DNA of 40,843 bases. Source: a virus. Numbering within the stretch: the first letter of the stretch is position 1; every line of letters begins with the position of its first letter. Below, in pieces: positions 1,263 to 39,123 of the stretch. The notes below the pieces were generated by a model that saw nothing but the letters and a program-made list of their open reading frames with translations, was not told the origin of the DNA and made no database searches. The DNA lies in IMG/VR virus record IMGVR_UViG_3300006919_000127, positions 1-40,843 of that record. The stretch is one strand, 5' to 3'. The translations under genes and the position numbers were made by a program.

Positions 1263-1272
1263 GGAGGATAGG

Positions 1273-1806: not shown

Positions 1807-1816
1807 GGAGAACAAC

Positions 1817-2053
1817 ATGGCACTTAGCAAAATACCTGCCGAAGGAATATCAGGCCAGTTAGGTGCTGGTTATTTTACAGGCGAAAATGGTAACACCGGG
1901 GATGTTACTAACGGGCAAGGCGATATTTTCCGTGTACACGAAGCTTCTCTTGATACGGCTACAACTATCCCTGCTAACACAAATGCGCTTGCTGCAGGAC
2001 CACTTACGTTTAACGCAACGCTAACAGTAAACGGAACTTTGACGGTGGTGTAG
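1817..2053 (+). CDS. short fibre-associated protein, paralogue of the first gene
   Basis: 78 residues; ATG with GGAG 7 bases upstream. MALSKIPAEGISGQLGAGYF at the start, then GENG, GDIFRVHEA, and TLTVNGTLTVV at the end. About three quarters of the positions match the truncated gene at 1-237. Each copy heads a run of fibre and C1q-like genes, so it may be the proximal adaptor of a repeated cassette. No enzymatic motif; the role is inferred from position. Confidence 0.72.
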   Translation: MALSKIPAEGISGQLGAGYFTGENGNTGDVTNGQGDIFRVHEASLDTATTIPANTNALAAGPLTFNATLTVNGTLTVV

Positions 2054-2054
2054 T

Positions 2055-3666: not shown

Positions 3667-3678
3667 CAGGAGAAATCA

Positions 3679-4080: not shown

Positions 4081-4091
4081 AGGAGAGTTAA

Positions 4092-4682: not shown

Positions 4683-4691
4683 GAGGTTTAA

Positions 4692-8931: not shown

Positions 8932-9371
8932 ACATAGACGCTTTTAAAGAAGAGATTATAGCAGACGAAGGTGTAAAGTATGAAATTTATCTCGATCATC
9001 TTGGTCTGCCTACTTTTGGCATTGGTCACCTTATTACTGAGGCTGATCCTGAACATGGACAACCTATCGGAACGCCAGTCTCGGAAAGCCGAGTGAATAC
9101 ATGTTTCTACAACGACGTTGAGCTGGTTCTTAACGATTGCATGATACTATATCCTGACTTCGAAGATCTACCTGAAGAAGCCCAGAGGGTCATAGCGAAT
9201 ATGATGTTTAACATGGGTAGGCCACGTCTAAGCAAATTCAAAAAGATGAAAGAAGCTGTAGATGCTAGAGATTGGAATGCTGCTGGATATGAGATGGTTG
9301 ATAGTCGTTGGTATAAGCAAGTTCCTAATAGAGCAGAAAGATTGGTGAATAGAATGCATGCTCTTGCGTAG
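8928..9371 (+). CDS. endolysin, T4-type lysozyme (GH24)
   Basis: 147 residues; ATGA overlap with the holin. The N-terminus reads IADEGVKYEIYLDHLGLPTF followed by GIGH, which gives the Glu-Asp-Thr catalytic set of T4 lysozymes (E in ADEG, D in YLDHLG, T before FGIGH). RVIANMMFNMGRPRLSKFKK and a terminal WYKQVPNRAERL are also family-typical. It cleaves the glycan strands of peptidoglycan. No signal peptide is seen, so export depends on the holin. Confidence 0.9.
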   Translation: MNIDAFKEEIIADEGVKYEIYLDHLGLPTFGIGHLITEADPEHGQPIGTPVSESRVNTCFYNDVELVLNDCMILYPDFEDLPEEAQRVIANMMFNMGRPRLSKFKKMKEAVDARDWNAAGYEMVDSRWYKQVPNRAERLVNRMHALA

Positions 9372-9421
9372 TGTCGTGTCTCCTATTACAGACCCGAAAA
9401 CTATGTAAAGAGGAAAGACAA

Positions 9422-11197
9422 ATGCATAACACAGAATATCTCGGACCTCAAAGCTCGTTGTCGCAAGAGATCGACATGATGAAGTATCGTCAAGAAAACG
9501 AAAGCTTTGATGAAAAGATTAAACGTATTGCAAGGGCTCTCTGTGATGGTCAAGAACATCGTTATAATCTGGAAGATATTCTAGGTAATATGCGTTTTCT
9601 GCCAGCAGGACGAGTACAAGCAGCCGTTGGATCAAACAGAATTACTACTGCCTACAACTGTTTTGTAAGTGGTGATATTGAAGACAGTATGAATAGCATT
9701 ATGGAGAAGGCCAGTGAAGCAGCTGAAACTATGCGTAGAGGAGGCGGTATCGGTTATGACTTCTCTAAGATCCGCCCACGTGGTGACAGGATTAAATCAC
9801 TTGATAGCCAGTCGTCGGGGCCGGTTAGTTTTATGGGCATATTTGATGCTGTATGCCAAACCATCGCGAGTTCGGGACATCGGCGAGGTGCACAGATGGG
9901 CGTTCTTAGGGTTGACCATCCGGACATTGAGGAGTTCGTTGCTGCTAAACGTAATTCTGACAAGCTTACTGGTTTTAACGTTAGTGTAGGTATCACAGAC
10001 GAATTTATGGAGGCCGTTCTCAATGATGGGGATAGTTCTTTTACACTGCGCTTCAATGGAGTCGAACACAAGACCATTGATGCGAAAGCATTGTGGGACG
10101 AAATCATGTCGTCGACTTGGGATTGGGCAGAACCTGGCGTGCTGTTCATTGACCGCATTGCTGAATACAATAACCTATTTTATTGCGAAGACATCAGCGC
10201 CACAAACCCGTGTGGTGAGCAGCCTTTGCCTGCTTATGGCGCTTGCCTGCTTGGTTCCTTTAATCTAACAAAGTATGTCACTATGCCGATCACGCTTCCA
10301 GATACTGACGCTGAAGTAAGGCACGCCCACTTTGATTTTAATCAATTCAAGAAGGACATTCAGGAAGTCGTGAGGGCTATGGATAATGTCATTGATAGAA
10401 CTATCTATCCACTCAAACAGCAATCAGACGAAGCAAAGAACAAGCGCCGTATGGGACTTGGCGTCACTGGTTTGGCTAATGCCGGAGAAATGCTCGGTAT
10501 GCCGTATGCCTCAGACGAGTTCCTTGTGTGGGCAGAAAAGGTATTCGCCTGCTTGCGTGACAATTGCTACAGAGCATCAGCTCGACTTGCAAAAGAAAAG
10601 GGCGCATTCCCGCTCTATCGTGAAGACTACTTGAAGTCAAACTTTATTAGAGGTCTACCGGCCTCAGTTAAGAAGGAGATTCGTGAACATGGCATTCGTA
10701 ACTCACATCTCACTTCAATCGCTCCTACAGGTACTATTAGCCTAGTTGCTGATAACATTAGTGGAGGAATTGAGCCGGTATTTAGTCATTACTATGACCG
10801 TACCATTCAAACCTTTGAGGGCCCGAAGGTTGAAAGAGTGGAGGATTATGCTTATGCTCATGGTGTAGAAGGTAAAACAGCAAATGATATTTCAGTACAG
10901 GATCATTTAGCAGTTTTGCTTTTAGCTCAAAACTACATTGATTCTGCGTGCTCAAAAACGTGTAATGTAGGAGATGACGTCTCATATGATGAGTTCAAAC
11001 AGGTCTATGTTGATGCCTGGAAAGGCGGGGCGAAGGGATGCACAACGTTCCGACTTAGTGGTAAAAGATTTGGGGTACTCCAAACCGTGGAAGAAGAAGC
11101 GGAGGTACCTAGCGAGACTACGGAAGTGGCTGAAGAAGAGGGAAAGGTTGAGGCTTGCTTCATCGACCCGCTCACTGGCCAAAAAGAATGCGCATAG
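9422..11197 (+). CDS. nrdJ: adenosylcobalamin-dependent ribonucleotide reductase (class II)
   Basis: 591 residues from the ATG at 9422 (AGAGGAAAG just upstream; an in-frame extension back to 9371 is not conserved-looking). The active-site loop is N262-P-C264-G-E266, equivalent to N437/C439/E441 of E. coli NrdA. C80 and C275 match the substrate-level redox pair, PTGTIS (435-440) binds phosphate, and C579 and C590 are a C-terminal thiol pair. NPCGEQPLPAYGACLLGSFN is typical of B12-dependent enzymes, and no small-subunit gene (NrdB) is nearby. It reduces ribonucleotides to deoxyribonucleotides and needs host B12. Unusually it sits in the late structural block, between lysozyme and nozzle genes. 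Confidence 0.92.
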   Translation: MHNTEYLGPQSSLSQEIDMMKYRQENESFDEKIKRIARALCDGQEHRYNLEDILGNMRFLPAGRVQAAVGSNRITTAYNCFVSGDIEDSMNSIMEKASEAAETMRRGGGIGYDFSKIRPRGDRIKSLDSQSSGPVSFMGIFDAVCQTIASSGHRRGAQMGVLRVDHPDIEEFVAAKRNSDKLTGFNVSVGITDEFMEAVLNDGDSSFTLRFNGVEHKTIDAKALWDEIMSSTWDWAEPGVLFIDRIAEYNNLFYCEDISATNPCGEQPLPAYGACLLGSFNLTKYVTMPITLPDTDAEVRHAHFDFNQFKKDIQEVVRAMDNVIDRTIYPLKQQSDEAKNKRRMGLGVTGLANAGEMLGMPYASDEFLVWAEKVFACLRDNCYRASARLAKEKGAFPLYREDYLKSNFIRGLPASVKKEIREHGIRNSHLTSIAPTGTISLVADNISGGIEPVFSHYYDRTIQTFEGPKVERVEDYAYAHGVEGKTANDISVQDHLAVLLLAQNYIDSACSKTCNVGDDVSYDEFKQVYVDAWKGGAKGCTTFRLSGKRFGVLQTVEEEAEVPSETTEVAEEEGKVEACFIDPLTGQKECA

Positions 11198-14300: not shown

Positions 14301-17300
14301 CATGGAATGCTATTCCTCCGGGCGTAGTGTTTTTGTGGCAAGATCCTATTCGCACTGATTATACGATTACAAACAATCGTACAAACGCCACTCATCCGCT
14401 TCAAACAGAGCTGTTTAACGTTCATCTTGCAGCGGCTGGATCTAGTACTTCTCAAGACGTAGGCTCTTTACCTTCGGGTCAAAGCGCTACGGCAAGCTTT
14501 AATGGTGTTTATACGAATACAAACTGGACCGGTAACATGGTTCAGACGACTACTCAAAACATAAACACTAACGTAGCTGATCCTAACGGAGCCACTGTTG
14601 CTGGTTCAACTATTGAAATTGATCGTGTTGATAGTTCAGCAACGTATACTAAGTCTATTACATACGAAGATTTGAATGCACCGCATGGTTCACCGCCAGT
14701 TAACTATCGCTCAAACTTAGGTAGTAGCTTTAGTTTTCAATGGCATAACCGAACATTTAGTGGTAATCAAAATGGTTGGGGAACTTCAATGGTTCGTGAA
14801 ACTGACCAGCAAGTTTGTTATTTACATGCATCAAGTGTAACTGCAGGTAGGCATGGCTGGCGTTGGACTGCAGGTCAAAGCGGTTATACCCAACAACCTT
14901 ATTACATTACCATGGTTGTAACAGGTAGACACAGAACAACTTCAAATGGTACGTTTTTAACTGGTACACATTATTATACAATGGAAATTACTCGTAATCA
15001 TCTTAGTGATGGTCAAGCACCCGCAAGACGACACACAAGTAATCCAGGTAATCCAAATCAAAGTAGTATGGCTAGTGGATCTGGAGTAGTTGAAAGTAAT
15101 ATCTATTATCTTTACGATTTAACTAGTTGTAGAGTTGAGTGGTATTTTAATACTTATCAACCGGGTACTTCTTCTGCTTCGTTTGGATTTTCTTTTGCTA
15201 ATAATGCTACAGGTATTGGTTACGACTTTAAGGTTCGTAAGTCAGCTAATACTGGTCCAGCTTCAACAACTGTACCAGCAGCATTAACACTTACTACTAG
15301 CTATCAAACACTGCTTGCTAATACGCAGTCTTCAAGTATTAACGTACAAGGCTCGTATACAGTGTCTGATGGTACAAGCGCAAGTGTTACTGCATCGTCT
15401 ACTAACGTAGATCCAGGAGTAGGATACTACGGAATATCTGCGGCTGATAGCCCAGCTATTTCTACTACAGTATCTCAAGCAGCTACATCTAACGTACCAG
15501 CTATTAACATTGACTTGTCTCCGTTTGTAACAGACATTACTGACGAGTCCGACTTTAGCGACCATATCGTTAACGAGCTACAAACATATGTAGAGTTTGG
15601 TGGTAGAGATCCTGGTATCCCTAATCAAACGCAGCCAATTGGAGCCTATTACTACGTAACTAAGCAATCTGGCGCAGATCCTGTGTTGATCACGCGTGTA
15701 CCTATTCAAGCAGGCGCTATAAGATCTATATCGTCTACTACAACAGGTACTTCAGCAGGTCAAAACGATTACATTGGCGTAAGTCAAACTTCCACTAGTG
15801 GATCAGGAACAGGCGCTACATTTGACATATCAACAGACGGACAAGGAGCTTATCTTGTTACGTTTGCTGATCCAGATAAAAGCAACAGTCCAGGAAGCGG
15901 ATACGCTGTAAACGATACTATCACAATTGCAGGAACTTCGTTAGGAGGTACATCGCCAGCTAACGATCTTGTTCTTACAGTAGATAGCGTTGTTGCAGGT
16001 TCTACTAACGACGGCTCTCTTTCGTTTAGCTTCTTCACTGAGAAGGATGGAGTTAAATATCCAGAGACCACGTTTGGTGGTAATGTTTCTGCTAATCTTG
16101 CAGTAGTTGCAAGTGGAGGTATTGGATCAGTTACTGCTCCTATTGTTCGCTTGTCTTTTGATGGTACTAATACCGATACAGTTTTGTTTGGTACAAACGA
16201 TCAAGATGACATTGCGTCTAAGCTGGCTCTTGCCTTGCAAAATACTGCGGCATGGACAGCAAATAGTAGTGGTGCAATCATTACAGCTACGAGAACTGCT
16301 AAAGGTCCTAATAGTAACTTTATCAATGTGTCTGTTGTTTCAGACCCTGATAACTTGCTTCCATCTAACTTTGCTGGAGCTTTCACAGAGCTACAGCCTG
16401 GTCAGAACTCAAGTACAGGAACTGCTGATGTAGTAGTTAGCTTACCTGCTAGTCAGTTTTTGCCTGCACAAAACGTAACAGTACCTATGACTGGCACGAC
16501 AGATGCTGAGCTTAGCTCGTCTGATATCGCTGCCTTAATTAGAGCTGCAACGTTTACAGGGTGGACTACAGGTGGAACAGGATCTACCGTTACGTTTACT
16601 ACAGTAGGAAACTACTCGGTAAATAGGCTAGACAACGGCTTAGGAACAGGTGTAGTTCAAAGTTATCTGTATGAGCAAACTCCTGACGACAAGAATAATC
16701 TGTTTAAGGTTTATCTTGATCCGGTGTCTGCGTCTACAGCAACTGAAACTACTGCTGGTATTACTGTTAGGTATTCTGAACCAACTGTGTATCGTGTAAA
16801 CTACTCTAACGGAGACTTCCAAGACTTTGTATTTGGAGGAACTTACAACGGTGCGTTAGCTACTAACACTGCGTTTGTTACTGACATTTACTCAGGTGGC
16901 AGCAGTTCTACAACTTACAATATAACTCAAATCTCTACTGAGCTTTTCACTGAGATTAAGAGTTTTGCAGGTCGTAGATTGTCTGTTACTCGAGATAGCG
17001 CAAACGAAAAGGTGTCAGCAACTCCAGTACAGTACAGTCAAAATGGATTGTGGGTTCAGTCTATTCAAGTTTTGAGTAGAGGAACTACATCACCTTCTAC
17101 ATTAGCTGTTACAGTTCCTACACCAATAGTCGACGCAACAATAGCTGAGACTATTAGTGTTGTTAGTACGTTTGATCCTGACAGGCCTTGGCCTATTGAT
17201 CAAGTAAAGAAAGGACGTAACTATCCTATCTTTATTCAAACGTCAAGTAATGCTAACGGTGTAGTTACATCTAACCGCATACGCGCAGCTGACATTGGCT

Positions 17301-19602: not shown

Positions 19603-22600
19603 ATGAAGCTTAAAAAGTTTGAGCGAAAAGACCGTTATGGTAATATGATTTCCATGGAGTTCGACACTGAAGGTTTGCCTGTGCCTATGCTACAAGAAAT
19701 ACCTATGGTGTATGACCATCCAGGCGAGCCAAAAGGTACTGATACTGTACCTGCATGGCTTACTCCGGGCGAGTTTGTAGTTAACAAAGAAGCTACAGAC
19801 ATGTACGGCGATGTCATTGAGAAAATGAACGATCACGGTCGTGAAATACAAGACGCTAAGATGCATGATGGTGGCTCTGTTGAGGGCGGCAAGTATCATC
19901 CAGTACATCGTAGCGAAGGTGGCTATTCAATAGTCGATACTATTAAACAAATACCTGGATACATGTGGGGAGAAGGAAGACGCGGTGGCAAAGCAAAAGA
20001 AGCGATGCAAGATTATCGGGAAGAAATTAAAAGGCGCCGTAATCAGGAAGAAGGCTTGCTGTCTAAGATCACAAATTACTTTGAAGATGGCGGCAATGTT
20101 CCTATGCCACAGCCTCGTCCTCCATATCTAGCAGCCTCATCTATTTACGATAGACTTCGTGATAGAGGTTTTAGTCATAACGCAGCAGTAGGTATTGTTG
20201 CTAACTTTGAAACTGAGTCGGGCTTTAATCCAGGCGCTAAGCAGCATAATCAAAAGTATGCAAATAAATACAAGTCTGACGGCAGTAAAAACCCTAATTT
20301 TGGCGTAAAGCCTGTAGACTCTTACTTTCCAGGTCAAGGCTACGGTCTTGCTCAATGGACAGAATCTCGTCGTGATGACTTGAAAAAGTTTGCTGCAGAC
20401 AAAGATATGCCGATGGATGACATCAATACGCAGTTAGACTTTATGATGCAAGAGATGGGTGGCGAATTTAAGAACGTTCGTGATAATCTAAGTAACTCTC
20501 AAAGTCCTGAAGCTGCGACTCAATATTTTCTACAAGACTACGAAAAAGCAGGTAAGCCTGCATCTGAACGTAGAATGCAATATGCTAGAGAATTTTCAGA
20601 CTTTATTACTAATCAAAAAGGAGAAGACCCTGCACCACAAGTACCTCTTCCACCGTCAAACCAAGAATCTCCACCGCGTCCTGTTGATGACGGTTCGCGT
20701 CCACCTACGTTATTGGAGACGCTATTTGGTGGCTTACCTATCTTCAACCAGTCAAGGCAAGGTTCGTTTGTAGATTATAAGCAACTTGGCGGCGAAATGG
20801 TTGACCCAACTGATCTTGTTACTGGCGTAAGAGGCATGAGATCAAACATTCCAGAGTTTAATTATGGCATTCAACAAGCCGAACTCTACGATCGCGCTGT
20901 AGGAGACTCAGCTGACGACCTTGGTACTGCCCCGACTGGCGTGCCAGTGGCCTCTCAGGCTCCGCCAGAGCCTAAGGATTTGCCGTTTGCTAGTAATATA
21001 ATGAAAGATCCGGATGTTGAAAGGGCCGTGCTTAGAGCGGAGAGTGAAGTAGCTAAAGATACGACTGATCGGGAAGATCTTGGCACTGTTCCTACTATGG
21101 TAGCGCCACCTGAAAAGGATGGTGACGATCTTGGTACAGCGCCTACAGCTCCACCAAAACCAGTGGTAGAGCGTGCAGATCCACGTCAGTTTGGAGATAC
21201 TCCTGAAGCTCGTATGGATTACAATACTGAAAACTCTGAAGCTTATCAAGCCTACTTGCGTAGAGCTCGGTCAGCAGGCGTTAAGCCTAAGTCGCCGTCT
21301 GAGTGGCGTGAGTACAATACTCCAGACAAGACTGGTGAATCACAATCTTCTCGTCATGCCATTTTGTCCGGTGCTTCTGAATCTCAGACACAGGCTCTTG
21401 AAGATAACCAAGCAGCGGCTGAAGTTCTTAACGAAGGTGGCTCATCATCAGATGCTAACACCGCATCGAACATGACTCCTACTACAGAACCCGACAAAGA
21501 AACTAAGAAGTCAGAGACTATTGCAAGCATTATTCAGAAAGGACAAAACCATACTGGTCCTGCTGAAGACCAGCCAGGAGATAACTCTGACGCTGGCTCT
21601 GTTCAAAATGAAGGTGATAAACAAGACGACGGCAAGAAGAAAGAAGCTGAGTCAATGTTTAAGTCTTTGTTTGGCGACTTGTTCGACAAGAAAGAGCTTG
21701 CACGTATGGCTGTTATGTATCTTGGTTCTCGTGCAATGGGTTACTCTCATCAAGGTTCTATGGGCTTTGCAGCTAAGAACTACATTACTCGTGTTGACGC
21801 AAAGGTGGCTAATCGTGATAAGTTCCTACAAACAAACGTTGGCAAGTTTACGCCAGACTCTCTTGAACTCTACCGTGAGACCGGTAAAATTTCTGATCTT
21901 ATTCCAGTTGGAAAGCCTATTCAGCGTAAAGGCGAATATAAGACTTTCTATGGAGAAGGCGGTAAGAAAATTACTGGCGAAAAGGTAGTACAAGGAGATA
22001 ATACATTCTACGTAGATCAAAACGGAAAGGTTATTAATCAATATAACTATCGTGAAGACGAGCGTGATGTACCTGGTACTGAAGCTTACGAGTCTAGAGT
22101 AAGTTCAAACTCTAAAGACAATGTAGCTATCATCAAGTCTATGAAGACTAAGATCGGAGAAGGTAAAGATGGTAGTGCAATGTACAAGACTGACATCAAT
22201 CCAGAAGTTGAAGGCCGTAAGGTAGCTGAATGGGCTGTCAAGAATGGCGTTGACATGGAAAGAGTTGGTGGTCTACTTCAGTTAGCTATGCAAGATGCTA
22301 TTAACGACGATCGTCAAGATGGTTCACGAGCTCAAAGCTTGATTCCTTATCTAGATAGTCTTGTTATTCGTGAGAAGACCGAGTATCCAGACTTGTTTAT
22401 GGTAGGCGAAGGCGATGATAGACAAGCCGTAGATCCTGAGCAGTTCATGGCTCTTAACGATGATGTAGCTTTTGTTATGCAGCAAATTGGTGGAAAAGGC
22501 AGTAACTTTGTTTTGGCCAATCAGTATTATACGCAAGCGATTAAAGAGTGGAACAATACACTTACCGATGACGATCGCAAGCAGTATACGAGAATGGCTA

Positions 22601-22698
22601 AAGGTACAGGCCTTTCACCGTTTATGGTCTTTGTACAAAAAGATCTTGCAGACTTTATGGCTAAAACTCAAGGAGTCACAGTCAAAACAGCAGAATAG
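19603..22698 (+). CDS. internal virion protein with phage-type lysozyme domain
   Basis: 1031 residues; AGGAGG before the ATG. Residues 41-68 (GTDTVPAWLTPGEFVVNKEA) are a motif of phage tape-measure or structural proteins. Residues ~180-335 form a tail-lysozyme domain: IYDRLRDRGFSHNAAVGIVA, FETESGFNPGA with likely catalytic E203 or E205, GYGLAQWTESRR, then a helical bundle. This would open peptidoglycan for DNA entry. Residues ~340-650 are Pro/Ser/Asp-rich and disordered-looking, with three copies of an octapeptide, DDLGTAPT or close (438-445, 491-498, 508-515). The C-terminal third is helical. It starts the trio of large ejection proteins. Confidence 0.8.
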   Translation: MKLKKFERKDRYGNMISMEFDTEGLPVPMLQEIPMVYDHPGEPKGTDTVPAWLTPGEFVVNKEATDMYGDVIEKMNDHGREIQDAKMHDGGSVEGGKYHPVHRSEGGYSIVDTIKQIPGYMWGEGRRGGKAKEAMQDYREEIKRRRNQEEGLLSKITNYFEDGGNVPMPQPRPPYLAASSIYDRLRDRGFSHNAAVGIVANFETESGFNPGAKQHNQKYANKYKSDGSKNPNFGVKPVDSYFPGQGYGLAQWTESRRDDLKKFAADKDMPMDDINTQLDFMMQEMGGEFKNVRDNLSNSQSPEAATQYFLQDYEKAGKPASERRMQYAREFSDFITNQKGEDPAPQVPLPPSNQESPPRPVDDGSRPPTLLETLFGGLPIFNQSRQGSFVDYKQLGGEMVDPTDLVTGVRGMRSNIPEFNYGIQQAELYDRAVGDSADDLGTAPTGVPVASQAPPEPKDLPFASNIMKDPDVERAVLRAESEVAKDTTDREDLGTVPTMVAPPEKDGDDLGTAPTAPPKPVVERADPRQFGDTPEARMDYNTENSEAYQAYLRRARSAGVKPKSPSEWREYNTPDKTGESQSSRHAILSGASESQTQALEDNQAAAEVLNEGGSSSDANTASNMTPTTEPDKETKKSETIASIIQKGQNHTGPAEDQPGDNSDAGSVQNEGDKQDDGKKKEAESMFKSLFGDLFDKKELARMAVMYLGSRAMGYSHQGSMGFAAKNYITRVDAKVANRDKFLQTNVGKFTPDSLELYRETGKISDLIPVGKPIQRKGEYKTFYGEGGKKITGEKVVQGDNTFYVDQNGKVINQYNYREDERDVPGTEAYESRVSSNSKDNVAIIKSMKTKIGEGKDGSAMYKTDINPEVEGRKVAEWAVKNGVDMERVGGLLQLAMQDAINDDRQDGSRAQSLIPYLDSLVIREKTEYPDLFMVGEGDDRQAVDPEQFMALNDDVAFVMQQIGGKGSNFVLANQYYTQAIKEWNNTLTDDDRKQYTRMAKGTGLSPFMVFVQKDLADFMAKTQGVTVKTAE

Positions 22699-22707
22699 GA
22701 GAAAACT

Positions 22708-25700
22708 ATGAGTGCAATTGAACAGCTAGCTACGAAGTTTACCCGCGTAGACGGCGAATTTGTAGCAGCAAATCAACTGTCACCAGATTATTACTTCGTC
22801 GATGCTGATACTCTGGCTTCTACATCTGACAAAGACGATAATGGAAATCCTTTACGTTATCGTTTGAAGGGTATTGACGCTCCTGAAATAACTAAAATCT
22901 TTGGCCCCAACGCTATCGCTCCAGGTACCGTTGGGGGCGCTACAGCTACGACTACTTTGCAAAACCTTGCACGCGAGCAGGGATTTACGAATGTAGTAAA
23001 GACTGGCGAGTTCGACGACTTCGGTCGAGAAATCATTGATCTACAAGACGATGCTGGTCGTAGCTGGGAAAGAATGGTTATCTCATCAGGAGTTTTAGAT
23101 CCTAATAGATACACAAGCAACGAGGCACTTCGCTCTCTCGAGGTTGCCAAAGTTTTCGGATCAGGCTCAGAACAAAAGAACGACTGGGACCTGGCAAGCG
23201 ACGCCATTTCTCAAGCTATTGAAGATGAGACTATTTACGAAGCGCAGTTTCGTACACAAGCCTTAAATGAAGTAGCTCTTGAACATGGTTACGGCTATGC
23301 TCCTGGCTCTGTAATGTTCCGTCATCCTGACCGAGATCTTAGAAATAAGGCCACTAATCCGCTGTCTACAGCTTGGGATGTAGGCCTTACTGGCGCTATT
23401 GAAGGTTTATATGGCGCTCTTGATCTAGTTGGCGATGCTACTGGCTGGGAGTGGGCTGATAACGTTGGCGAAGCAGGTATTTACCGTGCTCGTCAGGCCA
23501 TTAAAGCCAAGCCTGAAATAATCACCTCATACAAGGATGTTGATGCATTCTGGGGTAAGTCAGGGGCCTTACAGTATATAGCTAACAACGCAGCTATCTC
23601 ACTTCCTTACATGGCAACATCTATTCTTGGCGCTGTAGCAGCTCCTGCAACAGGTGGCCTATCAATGGCGGCACCTGCGGCTTTGTATGCAGGCACTGTT
23701 TACAATGAGATGGAAGGAGATAATAAAAATCCTGCTCTTGCTGTAACTACCGGTATCGCGCAAGCTGTTCTTGATAGAGTTGGTTTGTCGTTCCTCGCTA
23801 AAGGTACCTTGCTTACAAAAGAAGGGCGTGATCAAGCGGTTCAAGCTTTGATTAAAAGTAAGAAAGGCGATCATGTAAACATTAAGACCGCAAATGAAGC
23901 TAAAGATTACTTGCTTAGAGCTTCTCGTGCAGAGACAGCAGCACTAGCAACTGATGCTGCTAAGTTTGCAAAGCAACAGATTGGAGCTAGAAACGTAGCA
24001 CGTACTGCTTTAAAAAAGGTAGGAGTAGGTGGTCTTGGTGAAGCTGGAACTGAAGCAATTCAAGAGGGTATTGGTTACACGGCTGCTCATGCTGCTAATA
24101 ATTTCCGTGATTGGGATGCAAACGAATTCAACGACCGTCTTATTGAGGCCTCGATCGCCGGTGGTACTTTGGGTGGAGCGTTCTCCGTTCCCGGAACACT
24201 ATACGACTATGGTGCTTGGGTAGACGTAGCTCACCGTAAAGCTCCAGACGATATGAAGCGAAGGTCTTGGGCCGGAAATAAGGCAAAGCAAGATATTGCT
24301 GAGCGTGGCGTACAGTTTAACGTGCAAGATCAGAACATAGCAGCTGGTATTGAGGCCAACGCTACTGATCCAGATCTTATAGAAGACTTGAACCAACGTG
24401 TAGATCGTGAGATGAAGCGTCGCAGAGAGCGGACTGTAATGCAAGTCGGAGCAGACCTATGGCGTGCTATACCAGGTCTATGGCGTGGTCTTACTCGTCA
24501 AGCTTTTGATGAAGACCTACAAAACAAGTCTACTGAAGCACGTGTATTTGGTGAAAGTGTAGGATCTAATCTTCAAAGATCTACTAGTGGCGCTACATAC
24601 GAGAATCGTAAACACCATTTGATTACTGAAGTTCGTAACATGATGGGTGGAGTAGATAGACTGCTAGCTGCCTTTGATAGAAACGATAAGCGTAGTTCAC
24701 GTATTCAGTTTAGTGAAGAGTACTATACTGCATATCAACGCGCGCTTGCCAAGGCAAAGAGCGAAGGTAGAGAAATAAACTGGGATACAGATCTTGAAGG
24801 CCCGCTTGCTGATAAGAAGGCTGAGTTTATAGCATTTAATAAACTACTTCGAGACGTTGGCGACCGGCTGCACTCAATGCAGGCAGTACATAACAAAGAT
24901 CTTGGTTATATTTTCGACTATCTGTCTAAGTTCAAGTCAATTAACAAAGAAGCTGTTGAAGCTAATCAAGCTGGGTTTGAAGCTGCTCTTATGCAAGAGT
25001 ATAATATGAACCCTGATCAGGCAAAAGAAGTGGCCGAAGCTATTCTTAATATGGATGGTGTAGCCTCTCTTGATGACGCCTTCTCAGTAACTGACCGTAA
25101 GAAGTTCAAACCAGGTTCTCATAAACAGCGTGATCTTGGTCTGTCTGAAAGAGAAGCGTTTGCGCCATTTATGGAAAACGACCTATTCACAAACATCTCT
25201 AACGCGGCTAAGTCTGCTGTTCGTTATACCGTGCTTGAAGAGTACGTTGGTAGTGATAACAAAAAGCTTAACTACCGTCTTGCTAAGATTGAGAAAGAAC
25301 TTATTCAGTCCGGCATGGGAGCTAACGAAGCAAAGGCTAGAGTAGACGCGCTTGCTAAAGAGATGAAAGACTACTTTGACGCAGAGTCTGGTAACTACAA
25401 GAGACTTAATAATCCTGTAATTAACTGGGTTCAAAAGAACCTGTTGTTTGTTACTACTATTACTGGTCTACCGCTTGCGGTTATCTCAAACTTTGTTGAA
25501 GCTGCGCTTGTATTCAAAGGCATGACTGTCGATCAGATCTTCGGCAAAGGCAAAGAGAAAGATGGTAGTCTAAACTCTATGGCTAGAGCCTTTGTAGATG
25601 AGATTGGTAACACTGCAACAAGAGCTTATGGCGCTGCTACAAATATGCCAACACCTCACAAGCGTGATAGTGGTGGCCATGCAGTAGCTAAAGATCTTGG

Positions 25701-26658
25701 CTTCTTCGATTGGGAAGTTGGTGCTGCTCATACTACAGGTGTTAGTGAAACAGGTCATTGGCGTCAAAAGATCCTTGACATGTACTTTAAAGTTATACTG
25801 CTACAGCAATGGACTAATGCTACGCGTGCCTCACGGGCTGCGATTGCTGGTGATTTTATTACTGATCATCTGTCTGTTGTAATCGCTGCTAGAAATACTG
25901 GTGTATTTACTAACGAAGCTGCTGAAGCTGAAGAAGCTATTCGTAATCTTGGCATTGATGTTGAGTTTATGATGAACTACATTAGTGGTAAAGACGCTGA
26001 CGGTAATCCTTTTGAAGCTACTGAAGAACGTAATAAGTTGTTTGACGACTTTATGCGTGACGCTACATTTAACTTTGTTAATGAAGCTGTAGCCATGCCA
26101 CAAGCGGCTAACAGACCTAAGATTTTTCAAGATCCAAGGTTTGCGTTCTTTACTCAGTTCCAAGGCTTTATTGCTACGTTTACAGCTAACCATATTCCAA
26201 AGATGTGGGGAGAATACGTAAAGCGTGGTACACCGGCTATGAAGTATAATATCTTTGCGACCATGTCTACAATGATCTTGCTTGGATTCGTATCACAGCA
26301 TTTGAAAGACCTGCTGAAATACGGCAAGACAACTCCTTACTTTAGCGGAGCTGAGTACATTCGTCGTGGTGTAGGAGCTAGTGGTCTGCTTGGTACAGGT
26401 GAGCGTGTAATTGACTTTGTCTTTCCGATGTATGAAGAAAGATACAAAACAAATATTGGCTGGGCGTTTGGCACCGTGTCAGGCGAGTCAGCTGCATTAA
26501 GTAAAGCATTAAGATTGGGAGGTCTAGGCGTGGATGTAGCAACAGGTGAAAAGACTCCGGGTTATGCAGCAGTTCGCATTTCGCCGTTAGTTCAAGCAAT
26601 ACATCAACAAACTAAAGATCTACCACAATGGGGTTTCGGAGGTCCGGATGGCAATTAA
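22708..26658 (+). CDS. large internal virion protein with N-terminal SNase-like nuclease domain
   Basis: 1316 residues; AGGAG before the ATG. Residues ~28-150 follow the staphylococcal nuclease order: FVDADT (D32, D34), YRLKGIDAPE (R52, D57, E60), a GATATTTLQNLA helix, DDFGREII (R107), and a helix ending LRSLEVAKVF. These match SNase D19/D21, R35, D40, E43 and R87. The remaining ~1150 residues are helical with hydrophobic segments near 295-335, 912-937 and 1187-1205, as expected for a protein that enters membranes; it resembles large phage polyvalent proteins. Overlaps the next gene by 11 bases. The fusion implies a nuclease delivered with the DNA. The domain call is by motif only; it could be structural. 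Confidence 0.78.
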   Translation: MSAIEQLATKFTRVDGEFVAANQLSPDYYFVDADTLASTSDKDDNGNPLRYRLKGIDAPEITKIFGPNAIAPGTVGGATATTTLQNLAREQGFTNVVKTGEFDDFGREIIDLQDDAGRSWERMVISSGVLDPNRYTSNEALRSLEVAKVFGSGSEQKNDWDLASDAISQAIEDETIYEAQFRTQALNEVALEHGYGYAPGSVMFRHPDRDLRNKATNPLSTAWDVGLTGAIEGLYGALDLVGDATGWEWADNVGEAGIYRARQAIKAKPEIITSYKDVDAFWGKSGALQYIANNAAISLPYMATSILGAVAAPATGGLSMAAPAALYAGTVYNEMEGDNKNPALAVTTGIAQAVLDRVGLSFLAKGTLLTKEGRDQAVQALIKSKKGDHVNIKTANEAKDYLLRASRAETAALATDAAKFAKQQIGARNVARTALKKVGVGGLGEAGTEAIQEGIGYTAAHAANNFRDWDANEFNDRLIEASIAGGTLGGAFSVPGTLYDYGAWVDVAHRKAPDDMKRRSWAGNKAKQDIAERGVQFNVQDQNIAAGIEANATDPDLIEDLNQRVDREMKRRRERTVMQVGADLWRAIPGLWRGLTRQAFDEDLQNKSTEARVFGESVGSNLQRSTSGATYENRKHHLITEVRNMMGGVDRLLAAFDRNDKRSSRIQFSEEYYTAYQRALAKAKSEGREINWDTDLEGPLADKKAEFIAFNKLLRDVGDRLHSMQAVHNKDLGYIFDYLSKFKSINKEAVEANQAGFEAALMQEYNMNPDQAKEVAEAILNMDGVASLDDAFSVTDRKKFKPGSHKQRDLGLSEREAFAPFMENDLFTNISNAAKSAVRYTVLEEYVGSDNKKLNYRLAKIEKELIQSGMGANEAKARVDALAKEMKDYFDAESGNYKRLNNPVINWVQKNLLFVTTITGLPLAVISNFVEAALVFKGMTVDQIFGKGKEKDGSLNSMARAFVDEIGNTATRAYGAATNMPTPHKRDSGGHAVAKDLGFFDWEVGAAHTTGVSETGHWRQKILDMYFKVILLQQWTNATRASRAAIAGDFITDHLSVVIAARNTGVFTNEAAEAEEAIRNLGIDVEFMMNYISGKDADGNPFEATEERNKLFDDFMRDATFNFVNEAVAMPQAANRPKIFQDPRFAFFTQFQGFIATFTANHIPKMWGEYVKRGTPAMKYNIFATMSTMILLGFVSQHLKDLLKYGKTTPYFSGAEYIRRGVGASGLLGTGERVIDFVFPMYEERYKTNIGWAFGTVSGESAALSKALRLGGLGVDVATGEKTPGYAAVRISPLVQAIHQQTKDLPQWGFGGPDGN

Positions 26659-29600
26659 AGTAACACAAAACGTTGGTCAACAGGCTGGCCAAGAAGCTGC
26701 TGCTCGTAGTCAGCGTCAGCTTTCTTTGCGGCCTAAGACTGTCGTTGAAAGAATGATTGAAGCTGGTCCTCCTTCTCTTGAACAGCAGCCTGTACAGACT
26801 CGTGAAGGTAATATTCAAGAGCTGGCAAGACAAGCTGCGGCTGGTGAAATACAATTAGGAGATCCAAAAGAAAAGGTACAACTTCCGCCTGAACGTAGTG
26901 GTTCTCCAATCAGCCCACAAGATCAGCAACGTATGATGCAAGAGTCTCGACAGAGATTTGAAGAAGCTAAGTACGCTGACATGGCGGCAGCTCAAAGAGA
27001 AGAAGAGCGGGTTCCTGCTTTATCTGAAACCTATGATGGTATTACAAATGACGGGTTTGGAGAGTCTATTCTACGTGCAGATAAATTCTCCAACCTTTTT
27101 CAAAGTAAGATGGAAGATACTGGCGCTACAGTTGGTGGCGCCTTTCTTACTCAAAAAGAAACTCTTGGAGTAGGGTTTGCTGGTGCCAGTCCCGAAGGTG
27201 TAGGCATCAATCCACTCTCTACGAAAGGCGTTCTGTTTGATCCACAAGGATTTGATGCTGGTAAACTGCGTGAAGATGGCGTTACACAAGTCGATCCCAT
27301 GTTCTCCCGCACTATGGGCATGGTAACTGAACGCTTTATTGCAAGCAACCAATCCTTTGAAGCTGATCAAGAGCCTGATGCCTTTGACCAAGAAACAAAT
27401 AAGATGGTCGATGAAGAAGGTGAAATGAGACGTGGTATAGGTAATGCTGCGCTTGGCCGTGAGATCTTTCGCGCTTGGAAGCGTGAACAAAATCTTGCTG
27501 CTGGCCGGCCTACTGACGAATACTCAGAAGCTGGTGTAGCTAACGACCAGTTTGAGGTATTAGGTACTCTTGCAAAAGAGATGTACCACTCAGCAAATCC
27601 CGAACTTTATGAAAGAACTACTAACGAAAGTGAAGGCAATGTGAAGTTTAAGCTCACACCTGCTGGTCAAGTAGCGTTACGTGCAGCCGAAGCGGCCAAG
27701 CCCGACGCCTTTATCAAGCAAGAAATTCCTCCTTCTACAGTTCCACGTCCTATTGCTAAGAGACTTGGTGAAGGCGAAGCAAGAACTATTCGTAAAGAAA
27801 AGACTACTGCTGTAGTTAACCGTCGTATTAAGCGCGTTGAAGAAGCTCGCGATAATATGAACTCAGTAGGCCACATCGTTGATCCACTTCGTCGTAAGAT
27901 CTTTACGCAGCTTGCTATGCAGGCTCTCGTAGATATTAAGCGTGGTGAAGCGCTCCCCAAGATCGGTAACCTTTTTAACATCGGCCCTGAAAAGTTTGTG
28001 TCTTTTCAAGGTGAGAAGAAAAGAAAGGCCATGGAAGGAGATGACTCATACGATCCACGGTTTGAGATGGAAAAACAAATCGTACGGTTTCTTGAAACCA
28101 TGAATACGATTGGCCGATACAGTAATAGAGTTAATCACCTTGACTTCGTGTTGCAAGAGCTACAAACGCGTATGCACGTAGCTCAGACTCGCTTTAATCC
28201 ACAAGGTATTCCATGGATGCGGTTCGTAACGGGCGGTGCCAAGCCGAGTGAGATTCGTAAAGGATCTGGAAGCGATTCAGAACTCATGTTCAAAGAAATG
28301 ATTGCCATGCTCATGATTCCGGGAGCTAAGAAGCTCTTGCCTGATGAGCGTGTAAAGGCCTTTGATCGTGAGTGGAACTCGCCAAACCATGGTGCTTTGT
28401 CAGGTTACGTTACTGCCGGTCAAAGTATTGCTAACTCGCTGATGGATAATGATACAGACAAGAAGACCACAGAAATGCTAGGTCAAATAACTCTTGAAGA
28501 GAAAGGTATCAATGTACCACCAGCTTTGCAGTCAACTCCGAAGCTTGACGTGCCGGAAAGCGTGCTTGTAGAAGCTATGTCTGAAGGTCTTGAAGGCTTG
28601 AACCTTATTGAAGCGGCTCATGAGCTTTATCAGTACGACGCTAATGATAGGTTCCATTCAAACATGGGAGTAGAGATTGATGGTAAGACTCACGGACCTG
28701 CTTCTAACTTGATGCAGATCGGCGTAGTGAAAGCTGCTTACCGAGTTGGCGTATTGCGTAGTGAAGGGGCTACTAAGAACCTTGATGACTTTACTGTTGC
28801 CGAACTTTACAACGGCGAAATGGTAGAGGAAGATGCGCAGGCTGGCGATATTCGCGACGCTATGCGAGATTATATTCTCAAACATAGTCAAGCGTACGCA
28901 GAAAATAAGATGGGTAACTCAGACCTTGCTTATAAGGTGCATGAGATTATTAAGCTTGCGGTACAAGATAGAGATAACTATCTAAAGAAACCGCCGATGA
29001 CTCTTGCTTATGGTCAGCTTTTGAAGAACCTGAAAGGTGCTGTATCTGATGCAGTCTACTCAGGCAAAATGGCTCCAAAGATCCGTAAACTTATGGCCGA
29101 TAAAGAGTTAGGAAACGCCTTAGCAGACAGTGCTGGTCCACGTGAAACTGCAGATGATGTGATGATTAACATTCTTCATGACATTCTTGCAGACGCTATT
29201 GATGCTGAACTACATCCGGACGTGGTCCGTATTGGTCAGCTTTTGAGAGCTAACAACGTAGTTGCCATGCTTTCAGACGATATTATGGTTGTGAAGAACG
29301 CCATTGGTGTAGACAACTACATCGGCGCTCGTCAGTCTATGATTAAAGAGCTGAAAGGTAATATTAACGTCACACTGCCTTCTGGTCGCAAGGCCGGTGG
29401 AGTTCCTATCTACTCTTCTACTCCTTCTGGTTCTGCTCTCAGACAAGGAAAGCCTGGAGGATGGGGCCGAGGTCGAGTTATTCCCGCCGTTATCCAAGGA
29501 ATTGACGGAGCGTGGATGAATAAGACCTTTACACGGGAATCGTGGAGTGACTTGAACAACTCTTACATGTTACCTATCATGGACGCTATTAAGACAGACC

Positions 29601-30166
29601 TGGCGAGTGCGAGGAAGGTCAGGCGGCATGCAAATAGGAACTGGTGGAATACAATTCAAGAATACTCGTACGTAGATGAGATCATGGGTACTTGGGCGCC
29701 AAAAACTATTGCTGATTTTAAGCAAAGATTGGCAGACATGGACCCTAACCAGCCAGTAGACGTGAGTATGGACAGTAAGTATCGTGCTTTCGGTTGGTTG
29801 CTCGATCCAGCAAAGGGTCTTGATGATACGCCGTTCGATAACTTGGTATCTACATTGTACGATACTATGGACTTTCCACCAAGACCGAAAGGCCAGTCAG
29901 TTAAGGCTTATGAAGCTGTAAAGCGTAACACAGCAAAGAAAATTGCTAAAGAGTACGTGATTCCACAGATGTACAAGCAAGGAGAATCGGCTCCGCATTT
30001 ACAACAACTTACTCCAAAACAGATGCTTGACTTTTTCAATCGCATGATGACTGCATTGAACATCGAGTCAAGAAATACTAAGACAGTTAAGACTGTAGCT
30101 GAGAATAGAGCTAATCTATTTAACATGGCTAAAGACTCTGACATCTTACAAATCGACATTGGATAA
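26648..30166 (+). CDS. probable virion RNA polymerase (single-subunit type, N4-vRNAP-like role)
   Basis: 1172 residues; GGAGG 5 bases before the ATG, inside the previous gene. The first ~400 residues are helical/disordered, as in virion proteins. Then single-subunit RNA polymerase motifs appear in order: ELQTRMH with FNPQG (R508, like DxxGR), EIDGKTHGPASN (motif A, D678), KKPPMTLAYG (motif B, K780 and Y788; T7 has KRSVMTLAYG), TLPSGRKAGG, PAVIQGIDGAWM (D953, like T7 HSQDxxH) and PIMDAIKTD (motif C, D979, Met for the usual His). Spacings A-B 110 and B-C 191 are close to T7 (102, 173). Location with ejection proteins suggests it is packaged and makes early RNA. Not proved; motif C is divergent. 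Confidence 0.75.
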   Translation: MAIKVTQNVGQQAGQEAAARSQRQLSLRPKTVVERMIEAGPPSLEQQPVQTREGNIQELARQAAAGEIQLGDPKEKVQLPPERSGSPISPQDQQRMMQESRQRFEEAKYADMAAAQREEERVPALSETYDGITNDGFGESILRADKFSNLFQSKMEDTGATVGGAFLTQKETLGVGFAGASPEGVGINPLSTKGVLFDPQGFDAGKLREDGVTQVDPMFSRTMGMVTERFIASNQSFEADQEPDAFDQETNKMVDEEGEMRRGIGNAALGREIFRAWKREQNLAAGRPTDEYSEAGVANDQFEVLGTLAKEMYHSANPELYERTTNESEGNVKFKLTPAGQVALRAAEAAKPDAFIKQEIPPSTVPRPIAKRLGEGEARTIRKEKTTAVVNRRIKRVEEARDNMNSVGHIVDPLRRKIFTQLAMQALVDIKRGEALPKIGNLFNIGPEKFVSFQGEKKRKAMEGDDSYDPRFEMEKQIVRFLETMNTIGRYSNRVNHLDFVLQELQTRMHVAQTRFNPQGIPWMRFVTGGAKPSEIRKGSGSDSELMFKEMIAMLMIPGAKKLLPDERVKAFDREWNSPNHGALSGYVTAGQSIANSLMDNDTDKKTTEMLGQITLEEKGINVPPALQSTPKLDVPESVLVEAMSEGLEGLNLIEAAHELYQYDANDRFHSNMGVEIDGKTHGPASNLMQIGVVKAAYRVGVLRSEGATKNLDDFTVAELYNGEMVEEDAQAGDIRDAMRDYILKHSQAYAENKMGNSDLAYKVHEIIKLAVQDRDNYLKKPPMTLAYGQLLKNLKGAVSDAVYSGKMAPKIRKLMADKELGNALADSAGPRETADDVMINILHDILADAIDAELHPDVVRIGQLLRANNVVAMLSDDIMVVKNAIGVDNYIGARQSMIKELKGNINVTLPSGRKAGGVPIYSSTPSGSALRQGKPGGWGRGRVIPAVIQGIDGAWMNKTFTRESWSDLNNSYMLPIMDAIKTDLASARKVRRHANRNWWNTIQEYSYVDEIMGTWAPKTIADFKQRLADMDPNQPVDVSMDSKYRAFGWLLDPAKGLDDTPFDNLVSTLYDTMDFPPRPKGQSVKAYEAVKRNTAKKIAKEYVIPQMYKQGESAPHLQQLTPKQMLDFFNRMMTALNIESRNTKTVKTVAENRANLFNMAKDSDILQIDIG

Positions 30167-30173: not shown

Positions 30174-30215
30174 AGGGGTATCCCGAGCGTAATGCTTAGG
30201 ATACCCCTTTTTTTT
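30174..30215. terminator. bidirectional Rho-independent terminator between convergent blocks
   Basis: Inverted repeat AGGGGTATCC (30174-30183) and GGATACCCCT (30199-30208), 10 perfect base pairs with a 15-base loop. The right arm runs into eight T (30208-30215), and the left arm is preceded by a run of A (30165-30172), so it can act for both strands. It lies 8 bases after the stop of the + strand block and touches the stop codon of the last - strand gene (30214-30216). Confidence 0.9.
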
Positions 30216-30719: not shown

Positions 30720-33083
30720 CTATGCAAAGAAGTAATCGCTGTCTGCGATACTCTTAACTTCTAAGTTTCCTAATTGGTAATCATAGTTAAACCCAGACGG
30801 ATCGTCTAACAGGTTTTCTGCAATGATCTCATAAAAGTCTTCATGATCGTACATTGCTATGAATACTTCCTTTGTTAGAAACACCAGTTTTTCTACGTCA
30901 CAGGCGTGAGTAGAGAAGGAGTCGTGTATTGCTGCAAACTCGCCGTCCCAGTTAGCTATTACAATAGCCATATGAGACGCGTCCATACTATGAATGTAGT
31001 TGGGACTGATACCAGAAGCAAAGCCACCAGGACTAGGTATTTTCTTACCATACACAAGTCTTGGCTCGTTACCAACATGCTGAATGCGCATGTCTGAGAT
31101 CCATGACTTCCACTTAATGTCTTCCATTACGTAGTTTTCGTACGTTACTGGAAATCCAGAAGGTGTAGTCCATCGAATATTTTCTTGCTTCAGCTCGGTT
31201 ACAATGTAACTTGCTAGAGTTTGCAAATAGCTCATGGTTTCTAAAGGACCAGGACAGACTTCATCGATTGCCTTAATTAGATTATAAGACAAGTCATTAC
31301 AGTCCGACATAGTAATATCGTACTTGCTATGATAGCCTTCTGCGTAGCAGTCAGCATACATGTTAAGCGCAATAGCCAAGTGGCCAGCACTGTAAGCTCT
31401 CGTCATAGATCCACGCTTAGAAATACCTTTACGGATATGTTTCATTGGCATGTCTCTTTGTTCGAACCATTCCGGCATACGTGATCGTAAAGCCTTTGCA
31501 GTTTGAACGTAGAAGTCTTGTGGTATTTCAATAGGCACTAGTCCTACTAACTCTCCTGCCTTTTCGTCCTTAGAAATCGCAGCTAGGTGTTGCCAACCGT
31601 TATTACTACCATCAATAGGGATTGGTAGGTTGGTTAGATACACACTTCCGTTTGACGAGCTGCACCAGAATGCATGCCATTCTTTACAACAAGCAAGAAA
31701 TACAACAGGTTTTTCTGCCTTTTCGTGTATTGTCTTATTTTCCCAAGTATTTGTAATAAAGTCTTGGTTGTTGAGAACCCATCTTACTCGGTCTTCAATA
31801 GTCATCTTATCTACTGAAATGTCGTGCAACCCTTGCCTTTCGAGGTGTCCTCTATAGTCTGCCTCGAAATAGTCTGGTATCTCATCAATAGAATAAGTTT
31901 GGTTGTATGAAGACGCAGTGTGTATTGCTAAATAAAAAAGACCTTTCTCATCAAGTATCCTAGACTTGTGGAACTTAAGCATACCACGTTCAATATCCTT
32001 ACCTTGGTAATTGATATAGGATTCACGATAGTATAGTCGTCCTCTGTAGTCCGCGTCTATATACTGATAGAAAGGCCTTCCTTCTAAAGCAGAAGCCTTC
32101 TGTACCGTCATGTTGTATGCATCAAACTTACTTCTGTTTTTCAGCAATACAAGCTTAGCGTTCCAGTTAGTAGCTGCCTCATCGTACTTACGTTGAAGAG
32201 TTTCCAATGGCTTCTTATTTGGCTTATTACGAAGCTTGTTAGTCATGCGTCGTAGTTCGCCATAGTATTTCTTTTCCAAAGACTTATTACCTAGATCAGG
32301 TCTGAATATGTCTCCGTTCCAGTACAGGTTTTTACCTTCCAGTTCTTTATTATTTCCAAAGATACAGTAACGGTAGTTCTTACCTGTTTCGTCTGCTACT
32401 TTTAGTTTCTCAGTTACGAACTTATCTTTATTGTTCCTAACCACGTCAAGAATATCAGAGTCAATTTCCCATGCAGTTGATTGCAGCTTATCAATTGCCT
32501 TTACAAACGGCTCTTCCAAATATTCTTTGAACTCTTTGTCTTTGTCAAATCCCCAATGCTTAATCACTGGATATCCGTTATCTTGAAACAGCTGCGTTAT
32601 AGGCTTGATAGGTTCAAACGTAGTGTTTTGAATTAAGTCACTTACAACTACATCTGGCAATGTGCCAACTTCAAGCCAACGCTTGGCGGTTTCAATCATG
32701 TATGGTGCGCGACTGTATGGGCGTTTACCTACTGGATTATTTTCCCATGCAATTTGCGCTTCTGTTGGTGCTCGATATATGCTAATGTATCCGCACTCGT
32801 AGAAACCTTCTAGAACTAGGTCGCCAAGCGTTACGTCTGCTCGGAAACCTAGCTCCAGTCCTTTCCTTAAGAATACGTTCTTACCGATAGCAACAGATGC
32901 TGCTGTGAGTTTACATGTCGCTGACTCAGATACTGAAGTCTTTCTGAAGTGATACTGTAAAATGGTAAGTGCGTCATACACTAACTGCTTGATCGAGATC
33001 TCGTGTTCCTTGACAAGCTTCACTGCCCATCTTTGCGGAGTGTTCTCCACTTTCTGCTCCAGATATTCCATTATCTCTTGCAT
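30720..33083 (-). CDS. T7-like single-subunit RNA polymerase
   Basis: 787 residues from the ATG at 33083, with GAGGAG 5-6 bases upstream; an in-frame start 57 bases further up is less likely. T7 RNAP is 883. Motifs: DYRGR (R349), motif A PIDGSNNGWQHLAA (D491), motif B SKRGSMTRAYSAG (K556, Y564), TPSGFPVTYENY, GISPNYIHSMDASHM, motif C AIHDSFSTHA (H720, D721), and a C-terminal SDYFFA like the T7 FAFA foot. It transcribes phage genes from its own promoters. T7 has Gly after the motif B Tyr; here it is Ser. The first 110 bases overlap the GIY-YIG gene. Near the end of the leftward operon. Confidence 0.95.
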   Translation of the reverse strand: MQEIMEYLEQKVENTPQRWAVKLVKEHEISIKQLVYDALTILQYHFRKTSVSESATCKLTAASVAIGKNVFLRKGLELGFRADVTLGDLVLEGFYECGYISIYRAPTEAQIAWENNPVGKRPYSRAPYMIETAKRWLEVGTLPDVVVSDLIQNTTFEPIKPITQLFQDNGYPVIKHWGFDKDKEFKEYLEEPFVKAIDKLQSTAWEIDSDILDVVRNNKDKFVTEKLKVADETGKNYRYCIFGNNKELEGKNLYWNGDIFRPDLGNKSLEKKYYGELRRMTNKLRNKPNKKPLETLQRKYDEAATNWNAKLVLLKNRSKFDAYNMTVQKASALEGRPFYQYIDADYRGRLYYRESYINYQGKDIERGMLKFHKSRILDEKGLFYLAIHTASSYNQTYSIDEIPDYFEADYRGHLERQGLHDISVDKMTIEDRVRWVLNNQDFITNTWENKTIHEKAEKPVVFLACCKEWHAFWCSSSNGSVYLTNLPIPIDGSNNGWQHLAAISKDEKAGELVGLVPIEIPQDFYVQTAKALRSRMPEWFEQRDMPMKHIRKGISKRGSMTRAYSAGHLAIALNMYADCYAEGYHSKYDITMSDCNDLSYNLIKAIDEVCPGPLETMSYLQTLASYIVTELKQENIRWTTPSGFPVTYENYVMEDIKWKSWISDMRIQHVGNEPRLVYGKKIPSPGGFASGISPNYIHSMDASHMAIVIANWDGEFAAIHDSFSTHACDVEKLVFLTKEVFIAMYDHEDFYEIIAENLLDDPSGFNYDYQLGNLEVKSIADSDYFFA

Positions 33084-33444
33084 GTTTTCTCCTCGTTCTG
33101 CGGTACGGATTATGTACAACGTTAAATAGATTACATCCATACCTTAAGCAGCATTTAATTTCATGTGTCTCAACAATTAGAGCTTCTTGCTCAGTCATGT
33201 TGCCACCCTTGATTTCTACTATCTCCTGTATTTCAAACTTTTCTAGCTTTTCTAGTAGCCAGACATGGTGGTCATATCCTCTATGTGTCATCTGAAAAGC
33301 TCGATGCAGTGTACCTTTACCTACGTATACCACATCAAGCGTTTCAGGATCTTTGTGAACATACACACAGTACATATCTTCAGGATACTTAACAACCTCA
33401 TCTGTACCGTCACGTAGTTCAATATTTCTCAACAGATACTCCAT
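32974..33444 (-). CDS. GIY-YIG nuclease-like protein (possible homing endonuclease)
   Basis: 156 residues. CVYVHKDPETLDVVYVGKG followed by a conserved-looking R (HRAFQ) is a GIY-YIG variant (YVH...YVGKG), then helices HHVWLLEKLEKFEIQEI and EQEALIVETHEIKC with likely catalytic Glu. The start overlaps the dCMP deaminase by 26 bases. The last ~36 residues lie in the first 110 bases of the RNA polymerase gene in another frame and are of low complexity. A free-standing nuclease wedged between essential genes is typical of a homing endonuclease, but it could serve repair or DNA degradation. Confidence 0.75.
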   Translation of the reverse strand: MEYLLRNIELRDGTDEVVKYPEDMYCVYVHKDPETLDVVYVGKGTLHRAFQMTHRGYDHHVWLLEKLEKFEIQEIVEIKGGNMTEQEALIVETHEIKCCLRYGCNLFNVVHNPYRRTRRKHARDNGISGAESGEHSAKMGSEACQGTRDLDQAVSV

Positions 33445-38925: not shown

Positions 38926-38973
38926 GTGCAATCCTTTCTGTCCTTAAGACGGTTAATTCATGGTTAGCGAAGC

Positions 38974-39123
38974 TTATGCTTCGCCTTCCATAACAAGTTT
39001 ATTACTACAAATCGGACAGACGTCAGTATCGTCGTCAATTTGCATGACTTGAACATCACGTCCACAGTCAGGACAAGTAGCTACTTCAAACTCTTGTCCT
39101 AAAAAATCTGTAGTCTCACTCAT
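38974..39123 (-). CDS. small zinc-ribbon protein
   Basis: 49 residues from the ATG at 39123 (GGAG 8 bases upstream; an in-frame start at 39159 lies within the MazG gene). Two knuckles, CPDC (17-20) and CPIC (36-39), make a four-Cys zinc ribbon with an acidic loop between (QIDDDTD). Might bind nucleic acid or a polymerase. Sits between MazG and DNA polymerase. Confidence 0.72.
   Translation of the reverse strand: MSETTDFLGQEFEVATCPDCGRDVQVMQIDDDTDVCPICSNKLVMEGEA

Follow-up and report, generated by a model that had tools for sequence, protein, structure and literature searches.

We report that the 1172-amino-acid, cysteine-free protein encoded at positions 26648 to 30166 (plus strand) of the window, the whole 40,843-nt stretch of viral DNA analyzed here, is in all likelihood a compact N4-type virion RNA polymerase (vRNAP) and the third of three ejected proteins, which would begin early transcription at DNA hairpins before a T7-type polymerase takes over; we put the probability of this reading at about 0.85. 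The initial annotation had proposed, from short motifs in this same ORF, a virion-packaged single-subunit RNA polymerase (RNAP). All of the motifs that it quoted were found in the ORF and in the order claimed, and the single-subunit RNAP identity of the protein is now upheld by profile-profile comparison, an AlphaFold2 (AF2) fold and residue conservation. We refer to the protein as a compact variant, rather than a standard N4-type member, because its length falls outside the range of 2,842 to 3,820 amino acids found for N4-type vRNAPs (PMC10654107), with their giant N- and C-terminal domains.

Eighteen homologues of the protein were taken from IMG/VR and aligned (alignment A3), and the comparison set consisted of the catalytic regions of 14 Schitoviridae vRNAPs, for which the N4 residue numbering was checked. 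The two profiles aligned in hhalign over 536 columns with a score of 101 (E-value 2.8e-10), whereas none of the controls, two reversed and eight column-shuffled, scored above 25.1. Identity to N4-type vRNAPs is approximately 15% across the aligned core. A tblastn search of 50,697 phage records yielded only eight matches, all of them weak (E 4-5e-3) and all within Schitoviridae virion RNA polymerase genes, which carry other annotation in some of the records. Pfam, PHROGs and NCBIfam gave no match above threshold, and PF00940 was absent from the Pfam results even at an E-value of 1. A HMMER profile of the family searched against PDB sequences returned no RNAP match and did not reach N4, and no relatives were found in GTDB genomes. 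The hhalign comparison with the phage's own T7-type RNAP family gave a score of 27; the match is to the N4 vRNAP type, with no significant profile signal to the T7-type RNAP family.

The catalytic residues align throughout: R508, D678, K780, Y788 and D979 fall opposite N4 R424, D559, K670, Y678 and D951 in the hhalign alignment. The segment R508 ... N517-P518-Q519 ... R525 (28169-28222, plus strand, as are all the motifs that follow) corresponds to R424, NPQ432-434 and R440 of N4 mini-vRNAP. Motif A, E676-x-D678-G-x-T-H-G (28673-28696), corresponds to N4 E557/D559, and its sequence, VEIDGKTHG, contains the published vRNAP signature ExDGxxxG that was used in a survey of N4-like viruses (PMC10654107). 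Motif B, K780-x-P-x-x-T-x-x-Y788-G (28985-29014), corresponds to N4 K670/Y678. Unsupervised profile alignment confirmed that D979 belongs to motif C and that D953 is the conserved aspartate before it, placing D979 (29582-29584, in LPIMDA) at the catalytic aspartate D951 of N4 (FDG) and D953 (29504-29506, in IQGIDGAWM) opposite N4 IGTGDGMMM. No homologue covering R508, D678, K780, Y788, D953 or D979 departs from these residues, a comparison that draws on 16 to 18 sequences and extends down to 38% identity. Also common to N4 and the 1172-amino-acid protein are NPQ, R525 (N4 R440) and E676 (N4 E557); R440 contacts the initiating nucleotide in N4 (PMC4496689), as does E557.

The AF2 model built on alignment A3 (mean pLDDT 73.9, pTM 0.63) predicts a single-subunit RNAP fold. 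When the model was compared with the PDB using Foldseek, N4 vRNAP ranked first (E-value 3.1e-13) with T7 and mitochondrial RNAPs close behind, and all 50 of the 50 PDB matches listed were N4, T7 or mitochondrial RNAPs. The best match among viral predicted structures was a virion RNAP, and the named viral matches were RNAPs or vRNAP genes. Global TM-scores were modest (0.35-0.4), and the N-terminus of the model is of low confidence. In the model, D678 ends a strand, D979 sits in the turn of a strand-turn-strand and a helix begins at Y788, a predicted topology that fits D678 and D979 coming together in space. Of the conditions that the initial annotation named as refuting its proposal, the lack of a predicted polymerase fold and the lack of conservation in homologues were both examined here, and neither holds. 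A chance resemblance of the motifs inside an unrelated ejection protein would accord with the silence of the curated families and the weakness of the BLAST matches, but it is contradicted by the profile, structure and conservation tests alike; we consider it refuted for practical purposes, with a negligible residual probability.

The polymerase gene is the last in a run of three genes for large ejection-type proteins. The first (19603-22698, plus strand; 1031 amino acids, no cysteine) has a phage tail lysozyme domain (PF18013, E-value 1.2e-34), and the second (22708-26658, plus strand; 1316 amino acids, no cysteine) matches phrog_6958, a virion structural protein family (E-value 1.2e-23), and overlaps the start of the polymerase gene by 11 nt. 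The N-terminus of this second protein (DADTL...RLKGIDAPE) resembles by eye a staphylococcal nuclease signature, on which Pfam is silent. Directly after the polymerase stop codon is a terminator-like GC-rich hairpin followed by T8 (30175-30215, plus strand), and on its other side lies a convergent gene (30720-33140, minus strand) for a separate, non-virion T7-type RNAP of 806 amino acids with 10 cysteines (PF00940, E-value 4e-57), an enzyme on which the initial annotation was silent. Relatives L003, L004, G001 and G006 are organized likewise, with large virion protein genes in succession and then a convergent gene for a T7-type RNAP.

Several other features were recorded in the window and its relatives. 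A ribonucleotide reductase large-subunit gene (9371-11197; PHROG 84, E-value 2e-136) lies amid the structural genes of the window. The reading frame of one relative's T7-type RNAP gene (G007:C1:14575-16989) is interrupted by one TGA and one TAG, which may reflect a broken gene, a sequencing error or recoding. A polymerase homologue in another relative (L031:5415-10211) has a weak C-terminal NADAR match that is below the cut-off (PF08719, E-value 7.7e-4), which might be a domain fused to the polymerase and delivered along with it.

The window contig is incomplete. Our searches found neither a terminase, portal or capsid gene nor an early region in it, and no tRNAs or Rfam matches at the gathering threshold. 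The description of the rest of the genome as T7-like, made in the initial annotation, applies to the replication genes alone. The portal and capsid of relative G006 are closest to those of roseophage CRP-7 (54%), with non-N4 phages leading the other matches listed. Neither protein of G006 is N4-like (the window itself being without these genes). The accompanying suggestion of a separate lineage of virion RNAPs has stood up, in the form of a distant N4 vRNAP homologue occurring in phages for which N4-like phages are not the closest match in portal, capsid or replication genes.

Cysteine is nearly absent from the polymerase family, with a single residue among 21,911 amino acids across 18 sequences, and is entirely absent from all three large ejection-type proteins of the window and from 14 of 14 Schitoviridae vRNAPs checked. 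Other enzymes of the same phage contain 10 (T7-type RNAP), nine (DNA polymerase) and eight (primase/helicase) cysteines. Because the structural proteins of the window are cysteine-poor in general (0.33% in a 2117-amino-acid fibre-like protein), the absence of cysteine supports ejection but does not prove it. The particles of phages LUZ7 and LIT1/PEV2 contain a cysteine-free vRNAP, a property suggested to ease its transit of the tail or periplasm (PMC3715699). By its gene position, by its lack of cysteine and by analogy, the 1172-amino-acid protein would be packaged in the virion.

Two other roles for the protein have to be weighed against packaging of an active enzyme. It might be an active N4-type polymerase that is made late and serves as a second intracellular RNAP; this would be compatible with packaging in the window phage being something that we infer, but the gene closes the series of large virion-type protein genes and overlaps the preceding one, the polymerase and both of its neighbours contain no cysteine compared to ten in the intracellular T7-type RNAP, and those relatives for which packaging has been documented are virion proteins (PMC3715699, PMC12633501). 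We regard an intracellular role as quite improbable. The other possibility is that the protein descends from a vRNAP and is now a purely structural ejection protein without polymerase activity, which its last place in the ejection-protein run would also suit. The invariance of every catalytic residue in homologues down to 38% identity and the persistence of promoter-like hairpins in relatives speak against such a loss of function, and we rate it slightly lower still. A packaged, active polymerase is the reading that we carry forward.

A scan for short perfect stems on the early/replication strand of relatives revealed, in several of them, rows of hairpins that look like candidate start signals of the compact polymerase. 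Genome G004 (L064) contains eight hairpins upstream of early/replication genes (L064:6964-9180 and 15619-15655), seven with the loop ATAAA and one with ATTAA, whose stems are AATTTCAC, AAAGGCAC, GAAGGCAC, GAGGGCAC, GAGGGCCC, AGCGAGAG, GCGCGTG and GGCGCGGG; CTAATAATAT comes next in six of the eight. Four hairpins with the loop ATAAA are present in G010 (L066). The array in G001 (L022, 35761-37346), likewise upstream of early/replication genes, comprises four hairpins with the loop ACAAG located 32-105 nt before gene starts, and there is one further hairpin, with the loop ATAAA, at the DNA polymerase gene. G006 has three identical copies of GCGCGAT[ATTC]ATCGCGC. Nearly all of the hairpins are intergenic, and they lie upstream of gene starts.

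The window itself has one clear hairpin, since the contig ends before the early genes: GCGAAGC[ATAA]GCTTCGC (38967-38984, minus strand), just upstream of the DNA polymerase gene. A hairpin in this position recurs, with differing stems, in most of the relatives checked, the window included, although L011 and L018 yielded none there. The near relative L072, which overlaps the right end of the window, has GCGACGC[AGGG]GCGTCGC before an ORF; the loop is therefore not constant across lineages, being AGGG there and ATAA in the window.

Shuffled sequences did not reproduce the arrays. Same-loop hairpins numbered six in G004 and four in G010 against a maximum of one in 100 shuffles of each, and four in G001 against a maximum of one in 240 shuffles. 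When 12 ATAAA-type sites were aligned, all eight stem pairs varied on both sides and were 99% paired; as the sites had been picked for pairing, what counts is the variation of the stems around an unchanged loop. A covariance model of these sites gave matches below an E-value of 0.01 exclusively in early/replication regions, and nothing significant in N4 or CRP-7. The hairpins of this phage group that we tested fold well as single-stranded DNA (z -4.3 to -6.3). N4 positions 1-6000 served as a positive control, and there the scan recovered seven hairpins with 3-nt loops on the sense strand. Three hairpins in the N4 scan, with the loop TTC or TCC, lie 13-57 nt before gp1, gp2 and gp15; they agree in number and position with the three early promoters that have been published, the one-to-one assignment being our own.

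Sigma-70-like sites were not enriched in the early/replication region of G004 (28 found, 30 expected), which is weakly consistent with independence from host RNAP. As candidate late promoters we also considered repeats from the late regions of G001 and G006 but rejected them: those that were traced look like repetition within protein-coding stretches, and no motif for late promoters emerged.

From these observations we infer the following order of events. The polymerase would be made late, as the final member of the set of three large ejection-type proteins, and packaged in the head; on infection it would enter the host with the first DNA. It would then start transcription at small DNA hairpins with variable stems of 7-8 bp and a constant loop, located ahead of early and replication genes. 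Among these would be the genes that lead to the phage's T7-type RNAP, and that enzyme would in turn transcribe the late genes. Neither stage would need the host RNAP.

A further alternative concerns the use of these hairpins by this polymerase. They could instead terminate transcription, mark sites of RNA processing or serve as promoters for the T7-type RNAP, with the virion polymerase using other promoters, an alternative that overlaps with our preferred explanation for the protein itself. Several of the hairpins lie 13-16 nt past a stop codon, a few are followed by a T-run and might act as terminators, and DNA polymerase is a replication gene rather than a strictly early one. Most, however, have no T-run (in G004, CTAATAATAT comes next instead), and a terminator scan of the early/replication region of G004 lists only one of them. 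The covariance matches below an E-value of 0.01 avoid the late strand that would be expected for the T7-type RNAP, and a variable stem with a constant loop upstream of early genes is the format of N4 vRNAP promoters. We consider this alternative unlikely, yet a serious contender, and retain the hairpins as putative promoters of the compact polymerase.

The strategy of bringing one's own polymerase is probably wider than the N4 family. The N4 polymerase has been described as characteristic of one phage family, and its giant N- and C-terminal domains have been given roles. The survey of N4-like viruses discarded proteins shorter than 2,500 amino acids (PMC10654107), so that proteins of the size described here would have been removed, and among open-access literature we found no paper describing an N4-type vRNAP in CRP-7-like phages of this kind. 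More tentatively, at somewhat less than even odds, hairpin-promoter transcription by a packaged polymerase could be a general strategy that predates Schitoviridae or has spread beyond it, with these CRP-7-like phages having a minimal vRNAP without giant domains, loop-specific ATAAA or ACAAG hairpins at no more than eight sites, a hand-over to a one-chain T7-type RNAP, and no need of the host RNAP. A naturally occurring enzyme roughly as long as mini-vRNAP would reveal which parts are needed for ejection, hairpins with several different loops would constitute a set of matched enzyme-promoter pairs, and the related isolate CRP-7 makes part of the proposal testable in culture.

The compact polymerase resembles N4 gp50 and the other Schitoviridae vRNAPs in its aligned catalytic residues, ExDGxxxG signature, single-subunit RNAP fold and lack of cysteine, as well as in being a late gene among ejection proteins; constant-loop hairpins that may be promoters also lie upstream of early genes in relatives. 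It differs in having 1172 amino acids, about the size of N4 mini-vRNAP (1106 amino acids), whereas the full-length proteins have approximately 3,400-3,500 with giant N- and C-terminal domains. The N4 hairpin loop is 3 nt, compared to the 5-nt ATAAA or 4-nt variants of this group, and the second polymerase of N4 is a heterodimer, compared to the single T7-type chain encoded here; by portal and capsid, judged from relative G006, N4-like phages are not the closest. With T7 RNA polymerase (Autographiviridae) the protein shares the superfamily fold, and the phage encodes a true T7-type RNAP as well (30720-33140), but the two families within this phage have no significant profile similarity. T7 RNA polymerase is not known to be a virion protein.

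Roseobacter phage CRP-7 (MK613349) is the closest isolate, its T7-type RNAP being 33% and its second ejection-type protein 26% identical to those of the window; the paper describing it reports that it encodes a T7-type RNAP and is not syntenic with any known isolate (PMC6918029). CRP-7 gp33 to gp35 are three large, cysteine-free hypothetical proteins at the position of the ejection-type proteins, and gp33, at the polymerase position, has a motif-C-like IHDA with sub-significant similarity. A profile of a gp33 relative scored 25.57 against N4 vRNAPs (shuffled maximum 25.55), its AF2 model was uninformative (pLDDT 38), and a scan of CRP-7 for ATAAA-type hairpins found none. The virion RNAPs of P23-45 and the jumbo phage phiKZ (PMC10770324; PMC10612078) are likewise carried in the particle for the earliest genes and followed by a second, non-virion RNAP, but they are homologous to cellular multi-subunit RNAPs rather than to the single-subunit T7/N4 superfamily to which the compact polymerase belongs.
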